Positions 3,444 through 7,856 of a stretch of 64,000 bases of DNA are shown in pieces. The notes under the pieces were generated by a model. The model saw nothing but the letters and a program-made list of their open reading frames with translations, ran no database searches and had not been told where the DNA came from. Each line of letters starts with the position of its first letter. Position 1 is the stretch's first letter. The stretch is from Natronococcus sp. A-GB7 (GTDB taxonomy: Archaea > Halobacteriota > Halobacteria > Halobacteriales > Natrialbaceae). The stretch covers positions 124,001 through 188,000 of the forward strand of contig NZ_JARUKV010000003.1 in the NCBI RefSeq assembly GCF_029688865.1, read 5' to 3'. Both the position numbers and the translations under genes were made by a program.

Positions 3444-4796
3444 TCAGTCGTCCGCCCTCCGCTCGTAGGCGCCGTCGCGCTCGAGTTCGCCGCGCCTCCG
3501 AAGGACCGACGGTGTCCGACAGATCCCCGGAGCACCCGTCACCTGCGGTACCGTACAGTTGTTGCAGCTCTCACAGAGAACCCGGATACCCTCACTACCG
3601 TTCGTGGACTCTGTTTCGAGTAGCCTAGCTCCTAGCCGTGGCTCAGCGTAGAACGGACGGGCCATCCCGACCATCTCGCAGGCGGTCGGCCTGGTTTCGC
3701 CGCCGAGCAGCCGATCCATCTCCCGACGCTCGCGGATCCCTCCTTCCGCGAGAACCGGAATCGAGACCCGCTCGCGCACCCGTCGACAGAACGCCTCGTT
3801 CCAGGCCGGTTCCGTGTCGTACTGCAGCGACTGGATCCGGTTCCCGACGGCGACGAGACGTTTGCGAGCCGCGCCGCCGAACGCGGCGTCGTACCCCTCC
3901 TGTAGTGCCTCGTTCTCCCAGGCCCGGTCAGGATACTTCCCGCGGACGATACTCATGTCCCAGACGACCGACGTCTGTACCGGGACGACGGCGTTGTACC
4001 CGATCTTCTCGAGTCGTCTGGCGATCTCGATCCCGTCCTCGAGCGAGAGCTTCCGTCGCACCAGCGGCGCCGGCGGAGCGGGAGTCTCCGCGGGCACCTT
4101 CGCTATTACGGGAACGTCGCCGGCCCGCTTTCGGATCTCGTCGCGGACGACGGCGAGAAAGCGCAGTCGCGCCTCCGGCGATCCCCCGAATTCGTCGTCC
4201 CGGCGGTTGTAGAACGGCGAGCAGAACTGCTGGACGATCCCCATGTTCGCCCCCGCAATGTGGATCCCGTCGTATCCCGCGTCGGCGGCGTATCCTGCCG
4301 CACGGCCGAAGTCGGCCGCGAGTTCGTACACCTCCTCGGTCTCGAGAACGCGGGGATCGTACGACAGGAAGCCGGCTCGATCGAGCGCCCGGAGCTGCCA
4401 GGGTGGCTCCGAGACCGCGAGTTGCTCGAGACCTGGATTCTCCCGGCGGTACTCGGCGTGCCAGGTCTCCATGCTCCGGAGCCCGCCGTGCTCGAGCTGG
4501 AGGAAGAGCTTGCTGCCGTGATCGTGGATCCGATCGGTCAGCCGCGAGAGTTCGGCGACAAACTCGGGGTCGTGAACGCGGGTCATCCCCGGGGCCGCAC
4601 AGCCGCCCTCGCCGCGGACGATCGTCGCCCCCTGACAGAGCAGTCCGACACCCGACGCGGCGGCGGGCTCGAGGTCCTCGATCAGCGTGTCGACGGCGTC
4701 GGGGCCGTTGCCCGCACACTCGAGCAATGGAGCTCGGTAGAGGCGGTTCGGAACGCGACAGTCGCCGATCTCGATCGGGTCCTCGAGGGTTGCCAT
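3444..4796 (-). CDS. NADH:flavin oxidoreductase, old yellow enzyme family
   Basis: A 450-residue FMN TIM-barrel enzyme of the OYE/2,4-dienoyl-CoA reductase superfamily. It opens with PIEIGDCRVPNRLYRAPL and carries the typical DAGYDGIHIAGA region, near residue 180, with the neighbouring FCSPFYNRR. Near residue 405 a cysteine series, CESCNNC followed 12 residues later by another Cys, resembles the iron-sulfur site of dienoyl-CoA reductases. The extra flavin/NAD domain of those longer enzymes is missing. The enzyme probably reduces an activated double bond using NAD(P)H; the substrate is unknown. It lies 42 nt downstream of the alcohol dehydrogenase on the same strand, so the two may be co-transcribed. 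Confidence 0.85.
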   Translation of the reverse strand: MATLEDPIEIGDCRVPNRLYRAPLLECAGNGPDAVDTLIEDLEPAAASGVGLLCQGATIVRGEGGCAAPGMTRVHDPEFVAELSRLTDRIHDHGSKLFLQLEHGGLRSMETWHAEYRRENPGLEQLAVSEPPWQLRALDRAGFLSYDPRVLETEEVYELAADFGRAAGYAADAGYDGIHIAGANMGIVQQFCSPFYNRRDDEFGGSPEARLRFLAVVRDEIRKRAGDVPVIAKVPAETPAPPAPLVRRKLSLEDGIEIARRLEKIGYNAVVPVQTSVVWDMSIVRGKYPDRAWENEALQEGYDAAFGGAARKRLVAVGNRIQSLQYDTEPAWNEAFCRRVRERVSIPVLAEGGIRERREMDRLLGGETRPTACEMVGMARPFYAEPRLGARLLETESTNGSEGIRVLCESCNNCTVPQVTGAPGICRTPSVLRRRGELERDGAYERRADD

Positions 4797-4838: not shown

Positions 4839-5882
4839 TCAGGGCGGCGTGATCACCGCCCGGCCCTCGATCTCACGGTGCTCGAGGCGCTCGGCGACGG
4901 TGTTGATGTCCGCGAGGTCGTAGATCTCGGTACGTAGCTCGACGTCGCCGCGGTCGACGAGCGCGACCAGCTCCTGGAGTTCGGCGTACTTCCCTACCAG
5001 GGTCCCCTTGAACGAGAACTCGCCGTTGACCAGCGCCTGGCAGGGTTCGTGGATGTGTCCGCCGTAGCCGATCACGTGGTGGTCGCCGCCTGCGGCGACC
5101 ATGTCTGGTGCCGCACCGGTCGTCTGATCGGCCCCGACGAAGTCGAGCACCTGCTGGGCGCCCTCGTCGTCGGTCAGATCCATCACGCTCTCCGCGAGGT
5201 CGTCCTCGCCGGAGTTGATCGTGTGGCGAGCGCCCAGCTCCTCGGCCAGCTCGAGAGCGTCGTCCTTCAGATCGGCGGCGACGATGTCGGCGGCGCTCAT
5301 CGCGTCGAGACACTGCAGCCCGATGTGGCCCAGTCCGCCGACGCCGATGACGACGCAGGTGTCGCCGGGATTGAGTTCGCGGACGGCCTTCTTCGTCGCG
5401 TGGTAGGCCGTGATCCCCGCGTCAGCGTGGGGGGCGATCTCGGTCGGATCGACGCCGTCGGGGAGCGGGATCACCGCGCGCTCGTTGGTCTGGAGGTACT
5501 CCGCGAACCCGCCGTTCGTGGTGAGCCCGTTGAACGCGCTGTTCTCGCAGTACATATCCTCGCCGAGCCGACACGGCCGACAGATGCCGCAGGTCTGGAC
5601 GGGGTGACAGATCACCGGGTCGCCCTCCTCGACGAGGGTTACCTCCTCGCCGACTTCCGCGACGATGCCCGCGTTCTCGTGGCCGAGCGTCATCGGCAGA
5701 TCCTGCGGGGCGTACTCCTCCCACATCCCCTCGATGATGTGGTTGTCGGTCTGACACCAGCCGGCGCCCGAGACCTCGACCAGGATCTCGTCGGATTTCT
5801 CGAGGGTCGGACGGTCGATCTCCTCTACCTCGAGGGCCTCGCTCATCTCGTCTGTGTACTCGTGAAGACGGGCTGCTTGCAT
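4839..5882 (-). CDS. Zinc-dependent alcohol dehydrogenase, MDR family
   Basis: A 347-residue medium-chain dehydrogenase that should interconvert an alcohol and the aldehyde or ketone with NAD(P). Catalytic zinc ligands appear in GWCQTDNH (near residue 42) and GHENAG (near 68). The structural zinc site C-x2-C-x2-C-x7-C lies at about residues 97-111. A Rossmann motif GVGGLGHIGLQ follows near 180, and a downstream acidic residue suits NAD. The gene is divergent from the amidohydrolase/DUF59 operon across 142 nt and just upstream of the OYE-type reductase. In actinobacterial propane/acetone monooxygenase clusters a similar ADH accompanies the same two partner types, which suggests a secondary-alcohol or ketone role; that is inference. 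Confidence 0.9.
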   Translation of the reverse strand: MQAARLHEYTDEMSEALEVEEIDRPTLEKSDEILVEVSGAGWCQTDNHIIEGMWEEYAPQDLPMTLGHENAGIVAEVGEEVTLVEEGDPVICHPVQTCGICRPCRLGEDMYCENSAFNGLTTNGGFAEYLQTNERAVIPLPDGVDPTEIAPHADAGITAYHATKKAVRELNPGDTCVVIGVGGLGHIGLQCLDAMSAADIVAADLKDDALELAEELGARHTINSGEDDLAESVMDLTDDEGAQQVLDFVGADQTTGAAPDMVAAGGDHHVIGYGGHIHEPCQALVNGEFSFKGTLVGKYAELQELVALVDRGDVELRTEIYDLADINTVAERLEHREIEGRAVITPP

Positions 5883-5999
5883 GATACCACGTCACACTTT
5901 GTCGTACTGAGTGAAAACGTTCGCCCAACGTATCGCTCCCCGAACACGATCGCTACCAGCGCGCCCTCTGGTCGGGAATCCATCACGAAGAATAATGGT

Positions 6000-6017
6000 T
6001 GTTGATACCTAGCAACA
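6000..6017. promoter_or_regulatory. Inverted repeat between ADH and amidohydrolase genes
   Basis: The arms TGTTG and CAACA are separated by 8 nt, just before the amidohydrolase ATG at 6025. They lie downstream of a TATA-like AATAAT near 5991. A repressor bound here would cover the likely transcription start of the rightward operon. The arms are short, so chance occurrence is possible. Confidence 0.3.
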
Positions 6018-6024
6018 TACCACG

Positions 6025-7089
6025 ATGTACGATCACAACGGCGAGGAGATCTTCGTCATCGACGGTCACGTCCATCTGTGGGACGCGACGGAGGGAAACA
6101 TCACCCACGAGGGTGGCGAGGAGTTCATCCAGTGTTTCTACGACTACCACACGACGTTCACCCCCGAGGAACGTCAGTGGAGCATCGAGGAGTACCGCAA
6201 GTACGGCGCCGAGCGGATGGTCGAGGACCTGTTCGAGAACGCTGCCGCGGATATGGCGATCTTCCAGCCGACCTACCTTACGGACTTCTACGGGGAGGGG
6301 TTCAACACGACCGAGCAAAACGCCGAGCTCGCGACCGAGTACCCCGAACGGTTCGTCCTCAACGGGAGCTTCGATCCCCGCGACGGCGAGGCCGGGTTGG
6401 AGCACCTCGAGGAACTGAACGATACCTACGACCTCCAGGGTGTGAAGGTCTACACCGCGGAGTGGCGCGACGAGTCGAAGGGGTGGCGGCTCGACGACGA
6501 GGCCGCCTTCGAGTACCTGGAGAAGTGCGAGGAGCTCGGCATCGAGAACATCCACGCCCACAAGGGGCCGACGATCCGACCGCTGAACCGCGACGCGTTC
6601 GACGTCGCCGATATCGACGACGCCGCGTCGTCGTTCCCGGATCTCAACTTCGTCGTCGAACACGTCGGGCTGCCACGACTGGACGACTTCTGCTGGATCG
6701 CCGCCCAGGAACCGAACGTCTACGGCGGGCTCGCGGTCGCCGCGCCGTTCGCCCAGAACCGCCCCGGCAAGTTCTCCGAGATCCTCTCCGAACTGCTTTG
6801 GTGGCTCGGCGAGGACCGGGTCCTGTTCGGCTCGGACTACGCCATCTGGAACCCCGACTGGCTCGTCGAGGCGGTTCTCGAGGCCGAACTCACTCAAGAA
6901 GATCGCATGGAGTACGGTGTCGAGTGGGATCTCGAGACCAAGCGGAAGGTGATGGGCGAGAACGCCGCCGAGCTGTACGACATCGATATTGACGAGAAGA
7001 AACGGCAGTTCCGCGAGGACGAGATCAGCGAGCAGTTCGGGCTCGAGGACCACTACGCGAGCGACGCCCCTGCGGCGGCCGACGACTGA
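6025..7089 (+). CDS. Amidohydrolase_2 family metal-dependent hydrolase
   Basis: The 354-residue protein is a TIM-barrel amidohydrolase of the ACMSD/PF04909 type. The first metal site appears as DGHVHLWD near residue 14. Further conserved elements are NIHAHKGP near 175, EHVGLPRLDDF near 212 and FGSDYAIWNP near 275, giving the expected H-x-H, H, H and D series. The C-terminus is acidic and unremarkable. Its stop codon overlaps the ATG of the next gene (TGATG), so the two are translationally coupled. The family includes decarboxylases and C-C or C-N hydrolases. Its place beside a MIP18-type protein and an ADH matches accessory genes of bacterial binuclear-iron monooxygenase operons, where its exact job is poorly known. 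Confidence 0.85.
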   Translation: MYDHNGEEIFVIDGHVHLWDATEGNITHEGGEEFIQCFYDYHTTFTPEERQWSIEEYRKYGAERMVEDLFENAAADMAIFQPTYLTDFYGEGFNTTEQNAELATEYPERFVLNGSFDPRDGEAGLEHLEELNDTYDLQGVKVYTAEWRDESKGWRLDDEAAFEYLEKCEELGIENIHAHKGPTIRPLNRDAFDVADIDDAASSFPDLNFVVEHVGLPRLDDFCWIAAQEPNVYGGLAVAAPFAQNRPGKFSEILSELLWWLGEDRVLFGSDYAIWNPDWLVEAVLEAELTQEDRMEYGVEWDLETKRKVMGENAAELYDIDIDEKKRQFREDEISEQFGLEDHYASDAPAAADD

Positions 7090-7856
7090 TGACCGGACCT
7101 CCCTCCGACGGCCTCACCCGCGAGGCCGTCCGCGACCGACTTGATCGAGTCACCGATCCCGAACTCGACCGCTCGATCGTCGCACTCGAGTACATCGACG
7201 GAATCGAACTCGACGCCGGAACGGTTACCGTTCACCTGACGCTGCCGACGGCGTGGTGCTCGCCCGCGTTCGCCTGGATGATGGCCGCCGACTCCCGCAC
7301 GGAGGTCGAGGAACTCCCCGCGGTCGAGCGAGCCCGGATCTACCTCCACGAGCACATGCACGAGATCGAGATCAACCGGGGCGTGAACGCGGGTCGATCG
7401 TTCCCGGAGGCGTTTCCCGACGCCGAGGACACCGTCGACGCCGTCCGTGCAGAACTCGACCGGAAGGCCAGAACCGCCCGCCAGTACGACGCCGTCGAGG
7501 CGCTGCTCGAGGCGGGCCTTGAGTCCGAGACGATCGTCTCGCTTCGGCCGCGGGATCTCGAACGCATCGACGGCGACGACCGCCTCTCTATCTACCTCGC
7601 GGATCGGGCGATCGCCGTCTCCGTCTCCGCGGAACCGATAGACCGCTATCTCGAGAAGGCCCGCGAGACGGGACTGGTCGACGCCGAAACGGACCCGCTG
7701 TTCCTCACTCCCGAAGGGGAGCCGATCGACCCCGACGAGTTCGAGCTGGTTCATCGACGAGGGCGGCTCGCACAGGTCAACATGTCGAGCCAGGGCGGGA
7801 TCTGCGACGGGCTGCGGGAGTCCCGGGAGCGACGGCTCGAGGTCGCGAACGACTGA
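7089..7856 (+). CDS. MIP18/DUF59-type iron-sulfur assembly-like protein with C-terminal extension
   Basis: Residues about 8-75 form a MIP18/DUF59 (PaaD/SufT-like) domain: the segment VTDPELDRSIVALEYIDG and a single Cys in TAWCSPAFAWMM fit that family. DUF59 proteins help insert iron or iron-sulfur centres. The remaining 170 residues are an extension without a fold I recognise, rich in acidic and helical sequence, so the protein is more than twice the length of a plain DUF59 protein. It overlaps the upstream amidohydrolase gene by one base. An equally extended DUF59 protein next to an amidohydrolase is a feature of propane and acetone monooxygenase clusters, where it may mature the diiron enzyme. 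That link is inferred from memory of those clusters. Confidence 0.75.
   Translation: MTGPPSDGLTREAVRDRLDRVTDPELDRSIVALEYIDGIELDAGTVTVHLTLPTAWCSPAFAWMMAADSRTEVEELPAVERARIYLHEHMHEIEINRGVNAGRSFPEAFPDAEDTVDAVRAELDRKARTARQYDAVEALLEAGLESETIVSLRPRDLERIDGDDRLSIYLADRAIAVSVSAEPIDRYLEKARETGLVDAETDPLFLTPEGEPIDPDEFELVHRRGRLAQVNMSSQGGICDGLRESRERRLEVAND

Follow-up and report, generated by a model that had tools for sequence, protein, structure and literature searches.

What does a set of oxygenase accessory genes do in an organism that lacks the oxygenase? The question is raised by three genes of the haloarchaeon Natronococcus sp. A-GB7, found in the 64,000-nucleotide stretch of contig NZ_JARUKV010000003.1 analysed here (positions 124,001 to 188,000; hereafter the window). 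These encode: a Zn-dependent medium-chain alcohol dehydrogenase of 347 residues (ADH; 4839-5882, reverse strand); a 354-residue Amidohydro_2 enzyme (AMH; 6025-7089, forward strand); and a 255-residue protein (D59; 7089-7856, forward strand) that combines a DUF59 (MIP18/FeS_assembly_P) domain, residues ~11-87, with an extension of ~170 residues. To our knowledge, no role has been assigned to the amidohydrolase and DUF59 genes of bacterial propane/acetone oxygenase operons, which are naturally suspected of being helpers of the oxygenase. On balance, we favor a different answer: the trio would be a freestanding metabolic module, shared with the operons of C3 soluble diiron monooxygenases (SDIMOs), in which D59 loads or activates AMH and ADH acts upstream.

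The open reading frames (ORFs) are exactly as described in the original prediction, made from the letters of the window, of a Zn-ADH divergent from a coupled amidohydrolase-DUF59 pair. The Pfam matches agree: ADH_N (2e-26) and ADH_zinc_N (8e-23) for ADH; Amidohydro_2, with the whole profile covered, for AMH (3.5e-48; 165 bits versus a cut-off of 26.4); and FeS_assembly_P (DUF59) for residues 11-82 of D59 (5.4e-14; 52.7 bits versus a cut-off of 23.5). Pfam has no match for the other ~170 residues of D59; as the DUF59 match is limited to residues 11-82, the extension is real and unnamed. All matches of the trio to named NCBIfam equivalogs are far below their cut-offs.

The likeness of these genes to SDIMO accessory genes, which had been predicted, is on sequence comparison true homology, in gene order as well and with the D59 extension included. 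Plasmid-borne relatives of AMH, mostly in SDIMO clusters, show 50-61% identity at 91-95% coverage and have D59 next door; the D59 proteins of these plasmids are about 27-40% identical over nearly the full length, and the extension aligns along its entire length with SDIMO-linked proteins. The annotated clusters of Caballeronia, Aminobacter, Bradyrhizobium, Ponticoccus and Paracoccus have the order: alpha subunit, reductase, beta subunit, MmoB, followed by AMH, D59 and GroEL, with ADH nearby in most; Rhodococcus aetherivorans has the order AMH-D59-ADH-GroEL. Two D59 copies stand in tandem within one SDIMO cluster of Bradyrhizobium sp. CER78 (L184:11017-12564). The propane/acetone clusters of Gordonia TY-5 and of the Mim type of M. 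smegmatis and M. goodii share with the haloarchaeal loci a homologous AMH, a full-length D59, a Zn-ADH and the AMH-D59 order, with three haloarchaeal loci even displaying AMH-D59-ADH. The haloarchaeal trio differs in having neither oxygenase subunits nor a linked GroEL, in its usually divergent ADH and in forming a separate archaeal clade.

Published work has encountered this set in bacteria. In Gordonia and mycobacteria the propane monooxygenase genes are followed by genes for an amidohydrolase, an unknown protein, an ADH and a GroEL-like protein; Mycobacterium sp. AT1 has the first three of these at a separate chromosomal place, with only the GroEL gene left beside the oxygenase; and upon heterologous expression the GroEL-like protein was the essential one (PMC6849523). 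An oxygenase gene-cluster figure in ISME J (2022) labels an amidohydrolase and an iron-sulphur (Fe-S) cluster assembly gene (PMC9213486), and in Amycolatopsis growing on acetone and 2-hydroxyisobutyrate an amidohydrolase-like protein and Adh1 are abundant (PMC7176365).

The absence of an oxygenase or dedicated chaperonin, first noted in the window, extends further. The genome, which is 99% complete, has zero matches to PF02332 (Phenol_Hydrox, the diiron hydroxylase alpha/beta subunits), and PF02406 (the MmoB/DmpM coupling protein) is found neither in it nor in four congeners. Both models perform as expected elsewhere: PF02332 detects three haloarchaea as well as 3/3 bacterial positive controls, and PF02406 detects its own positive controls, namely two of these haloarchaea (G064 and G217) and a Bradyrhizobium. 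Five Cpn60/thermosome genes are present in the genome, none of them on the contig of the trio (C23). A search of 292 Halobacteria genomes with D59 recovered matches in 108: 87 strong (E<=1e-43) and 21 weak partial ones, such as PaaD, the split being our own count. SDIMO genes are borne by three of the 292 genomes, none of which is among the 87; at 3 against 87 this non-overlap is not significant on its own, but it makes clear that genomes with the trio regularly do without an SDIMO. The three SDIMO loci (L107, G064:C1:2867001-2886900; L108 in G217; L109 in G095) each encode two PF02332 subunits without AMH or D59; MmoB was seen in G064 and G217, and the SDIMO genes of G064 have an IclR regulator, a transposase and a peroxidase in their vicinity. 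The original prediction was held to fail if trio genomes consistently lacked a diiron oxygenase and the proteins grouped with unrelated families: the former is what we find for Halobacteria; the latter is not, the proteins being true relatives of the SDIMO-linked ones.

Within Halobacteria the linkage is tight, and chance does not account for it. We retrieved 60 loci, 19 from the family to which the window belongs and 41 from others, and AMH adjoins D59 in all 60, with AMH identities of 67-98%. ADH, called at >60% identity, is near the pair in 55 of them (52 divergent, three co-directional downstream). ORF clustering with a codon-usage gene caller returned the trio as the sole widely conserved gene set outside the window's family, with no further widespread neighbor: the best were a FAD-protein at 10/42 and a 2-oxoacid dehydrogenase E1 gene at 8/42 loci. 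In one locus (L087; G271:C4:541011-541823) D59 is present as two overlapping pieces, suggestive of a frameshift, with AMH and ADH retained. The D59 start codon overlaps the AMH stop codon (TGATG). The 142-bp spacer between ADH and AMH (5883-6024) presumably serves as a two-way promoter; it features an AAGARTAATG-like element ~45 bp before the AMH start (about 5980-5990) that is conserved in an alignment of 16 loci of the window's family, consistent with joint regulation of the divergent units.

Oxygenase-free versions of the unit are also found in bacteria. Scanning 84,980 species genomes yielded 80 bacterial loci, to which nine plasmid loci were added. D59 lies beside AMH in 87 of these 89, both exceptions being contig ends; SDIMO genes are present at 65 and absent from 24. 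Twenty genomes have an SDIMO-free pair, and PF02332 is wholly absent from 13 of them: Thermomicrobium, Thermogemmatispora, Chloroflexus, Ktedonobacterales and other Chloroflexota, three Poribacteria, three Bacillota and one alphaproteobacterium. Many of the 20 are draft metagenome-assembled genomes, and single oxygenase absences therefore carry limited weight. The SDIMO-free loci of Thermomicrobium, Thermogemmatispora, Chloroflexus, Poribacteria and Bacillota have the same genes as the haloarchaeal ones, mostly in the absence of PF02332; they differ in that AMH is 53-62% and D59 about 31-38% identical, the genes are co-directional and some lack ADH. A methylglyoxal link, prompted by gloA in Rhizobium N324 and DJ-1/PfpI in Peribacillus, concerned these two cases only and was not used.

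The phylogeny of AMH places the haloarchaeal proteins in one clade (support 100/100), apart from all bacterial ones. The SDIMO-linked AMHs fall into actinobacterial and proteobacterial groups, both of which contain or adjoin SDIMO-free members, and a single clade for the SDIMO-linked loci is rejected by the approximately unbiased (AU) test (p-AU about 1e-56). Grouping all SDIMO-bearing genomes, including alphaproteobacteria with an SDIMO elsewhere, gives a marginal result (p-AU 0.047), which weakens the claim of several captures by oxygenase operons. The D59 tree has similar groups to that of AMH. We read the module as separable from the oxygenase context and, under a root that is not firmly placed, as plausibly older than it.

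The association with a DUF59 protein reaches beyond these close relatives. Among 13 distant relatives of AMH (24-36% identity by tblastn; 120-245 bits to the AMH profile), 12 have a directly adjacent gene for a DUF59 (10) or NifU (2) protein, and the thirteenth is a truncated gene. The adjacent DUF59 proteins are short ones, from Natrinema, Natronorubrum, Haloarcula, Sinorhizobium, Sphingopyxis, Rhodococcus oxybenzonivorans, Bradyrhizobium, Nonomuraea, Streptomyces and the Natronococcus genome itself, which carries such a second pair on another contig (C29; L219:6930-8443) beside genes for an aldehyde dehydrogenase and a short-chain dehydrogenase/reductase (SDR). In Shinella and Ensifer a NifU-domain protein replaces DUF59 beside the amidohydrolase (L198:3989-5292 and L199:3803-5118). 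The neighborhoods of the distant pairs are unrelated: a thiolase with a 2-oxoacid dehydrogenase; an aldehyde dehydrogenase with an SDR; CoA ligases. No DUF59 or NifU neighbor was found for four amidohydrolases with weak scores (33-47 bits) at two loci linked to UbiD or for the four other Amidohydro_2 genes of the Natronococcus genome. As distant amidohydrolases outside oxygenase clusters also adjoin such genes, it is with the amidohydrolase that the Fe-S-carrier-type protein travels. Both the DUF59/PaaD-like and the NifU C-terminal domain belong to the Fe-S cluster assembly domains, and their folds are related. That one takes the place of the other suggests that the shared need is the supply of iron or Fe-S clusters to the amidohydrolase. 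The literature that we searched contains no report tying an amidohydrolase to DUF59 as such a pair.

Both proteins of the pair have conserved residues of the kind that bind metals. Alignment of 46 D59 proteins from both domains of life reveals four invariant positions: C57 in the DUF59 domain, H89, C239 and R246, the first three being of the metal-ligand type. In the AlphaFold2 model of D59 (predicted local distance difference test, pLDDT, 94.2) the first ~87 residues match DUF59 structures (3cq2 and the human cytosolic iron-sulphur assembly factor CIAO2B, 6tbn), and a structure search returned no convincing PDB match for the extension. D59 hence shares an N-terminal domain fold and a conserved cysteine with the MIP18/DUF59 Fe-S carriers (SufT, PaaD, CIAO2B), and differs from them in its ~170-residue extension with the invariant H89 and C239, which lacks a convincing solved homologue. 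In AMH, alignments of 59 and 51 sequences show H15, H17, K141, H179, H213 and D271 to be invariant; these include the canonical HxH, His, His and Asp metal ligands (H15, H17, H179, H213, D271). The nearest folds to the AMH model (pLDDT 90.9) are the uncharacterised 3irs and the ACMSD/LigW/dihydroxybenzoate decarboxylase group. With 3irs and with the Amidohydro_2 decarboxylases and hydratases, such as ACMSD, LigW and LigJ, AMH has in common the TIM-barrel fold and the canonical ligands, whereas identity is 11-19% and its HK motif and D196 are instead shared with the DUF59/NifU-paired branch.

That distant branch retains H17, K141, H179, K180, D196 and H213, whereas H15 is replaced by V/A/S and D271 by G/E, the alignment being less certain near the latter. 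With H15 and D271 replaced, its metal site differs from that of canonical amidohydrolases. This opens an alternative, namely that AMH itself depends on iron and has unusual chemistry, perhaps at a His-rich Fe site, to which D59/NifU partners supply iron or a cluster. The non-canonical site of the distant paired branch and the filling of the partner role by two different Fe-S carrier families speak for it; however, the window AMH retains all canonical ligands, and the alignment of the distant group around D271 is uncertain. We accord this alternative a rather small probability.

Returning to the freestanding module, which we prefer on the homology, linkage, SDIMO absence, conserved residues and wider pairing described above, we envisage it as follows. 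AMH would be an amidohydrolase-fold metalloenzyme and D59 its dedicated partner: the latter would carry iron or an Fe-S cluster and load or activate the metal center of AMH by way of C57 (DUF59 domain), H89 and C239 (both in the extension). ADH would convert an alcohol to a ketone (or hydroxyketone) and back, putatively as the step preceding AMH. Its closest solved structures are an Aeropyrum ADH (1h2b; 7e-99), followed by the secondary ADH-A of Rhodococcus ruber (2xaa; 8e-61); Pfam identifies it as a Zn-ADH, for which a place among the secondary ADHs of the R. ruber ADH-A and Gordonia Adh1 type, with secondary-alcohol specificity, is putative. A small C3-type alcohol or ketone would be the substrate, since the SDIMO operons that carry the module have this metabolite space in common: they would hold the module since the C3 alcohol or ketone that they produce enters it, and haloarchaea would obtain the substrate without an oxygenase. 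As the trio stands without an oxygenase, as in several bacterial phyla, it is probably a small metabolic unit of its own rather than a collection of maturation parts; a freestanding pathway is the better of the two alternatives offered in the original prediction. A bolder generalization, to which we would attach only tentative belief, is that AMH and D59 constitute one undescribed enzyme system across Archaea and Bacteria, with an iron or Fe-S center loaded by, or shared with, an obligatory DUF59/NifU-type carrier; its haloarchaeal substrate would be a small ketone or hydroxyketone, and operons of C3-alkane oxygenases would have taken up the system on more than one occasion.

Several observations weigh against the freestanding module. 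In other settings DUF59 proteins take part in Fe-S assembly for many client proteins, and for the putative dedication of D59 to AMH the evidence is gene linkage. Pfam analysis of 20 neighbors of SDIMO-free bacterial pairs reveals no common pathway. Several separate pairs of alphaproteobacteria are in genomes that encode an SDIMO elsewhere (7/20 genomes), and there a link in trans is possible. Finally, ADH is not beside 5/60 haloarchaeal pairs; the haloarchaeal ADHs are ~45-51% identical to most ADHs of bacterial trios, and the ADH tree mixes lineages. Hence, ADH orthology is weaker than that of AMH and D59, and ADH may have been exchanged.

The last points lend themselves to the view that AMH and D59 alone belong together, ADH being a frequent neighbor with an independent function, the more so as several bacterial pairs also lack it. 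Yet ADH recurs by the pair in varied orders in Halobacteria, Chloroflexota, Poribacteria, Bacillota, Actinobacteria and Proteobacteria, and the trio of Mycobacterium AT1 moves as a set (PMC6849523); we consider independence of ADH improbable, though not negligibly so. Slightly less credible to us is that D59 matures another iron oxygenase or enzyme in trans, its place beside AMH reflecting co-regulation only. Its DUF59 domain does resemble CIAO2B and other Fe-S targeting proteins, and the named NCBIfam family nearest to D59 is PaaD of phenylacetyl-CoA epoxidase (1.4e-8, far below cut-off); however, ADH is the one constant third gene of a pair that is conserved across domains of life, and a DUF59/NifU gene accompanies distant amidohydrolases in unrelated neighborhoods. 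The remaining proposal, that the trio matures a diiron monooxygenase whose genes lie in another part of this genome, could invoke the AMH/D59 orthologs inside SDIMO operons of Proteobacteria and Actinobacteria and the seven bacterial genomes above, but it is contradicted for a PF02332-type enzyme, unless the gene falls in an assembly gap, by the lack of any SDIMO subunit in this genome or the 87 D59 genomes and fits poorly with the published need for a GroEL-like protein (PMC6849523), so that we hold it to be very improbable.

An Old Yellow Enzyme (OYE)-type reductase gene (3444-4796), which had been suggested to belong to the set, has orthologs at 15/19 loci of the window's family and at 0/41 others, in a chromosomal block with phosphoesterase, IMP cyclohydrolase, rhodanese and helicase genes; we reject it as a module member, its linkage being local synteny. 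An HNH endonuclease with a homing-endonuclease-associated repeat (1566-2384) lies between the IMP cyclohydrolase and rhodanese genes, and its presence varies among relatives. The 2-oxoacid dehydrogenase gene mentioned above, E1-alpha-like, lies within a few kb of the trio at its eight non-family loci (e.g. L047:12802-13950), which may be genus-level synteny.

The family of each gene was already known and the set was already visible in bacterial operons, and in that sense the trio is ordinary. What is apparently new is the widespread haloarchaeal version without an oxygenase and the finding that this branch of amidohydrolases almost always comes with a gene of the Fe/Fe-S-carrier type. That oxygenase-free archaea and bacteria possess the same unit, and that the carrier gene is kept in unrelated contexts, suggests that the unit has a metabolic role in its own right, and these oxygenase-free hosts allow the role of AMH and D59 to be tested directly.

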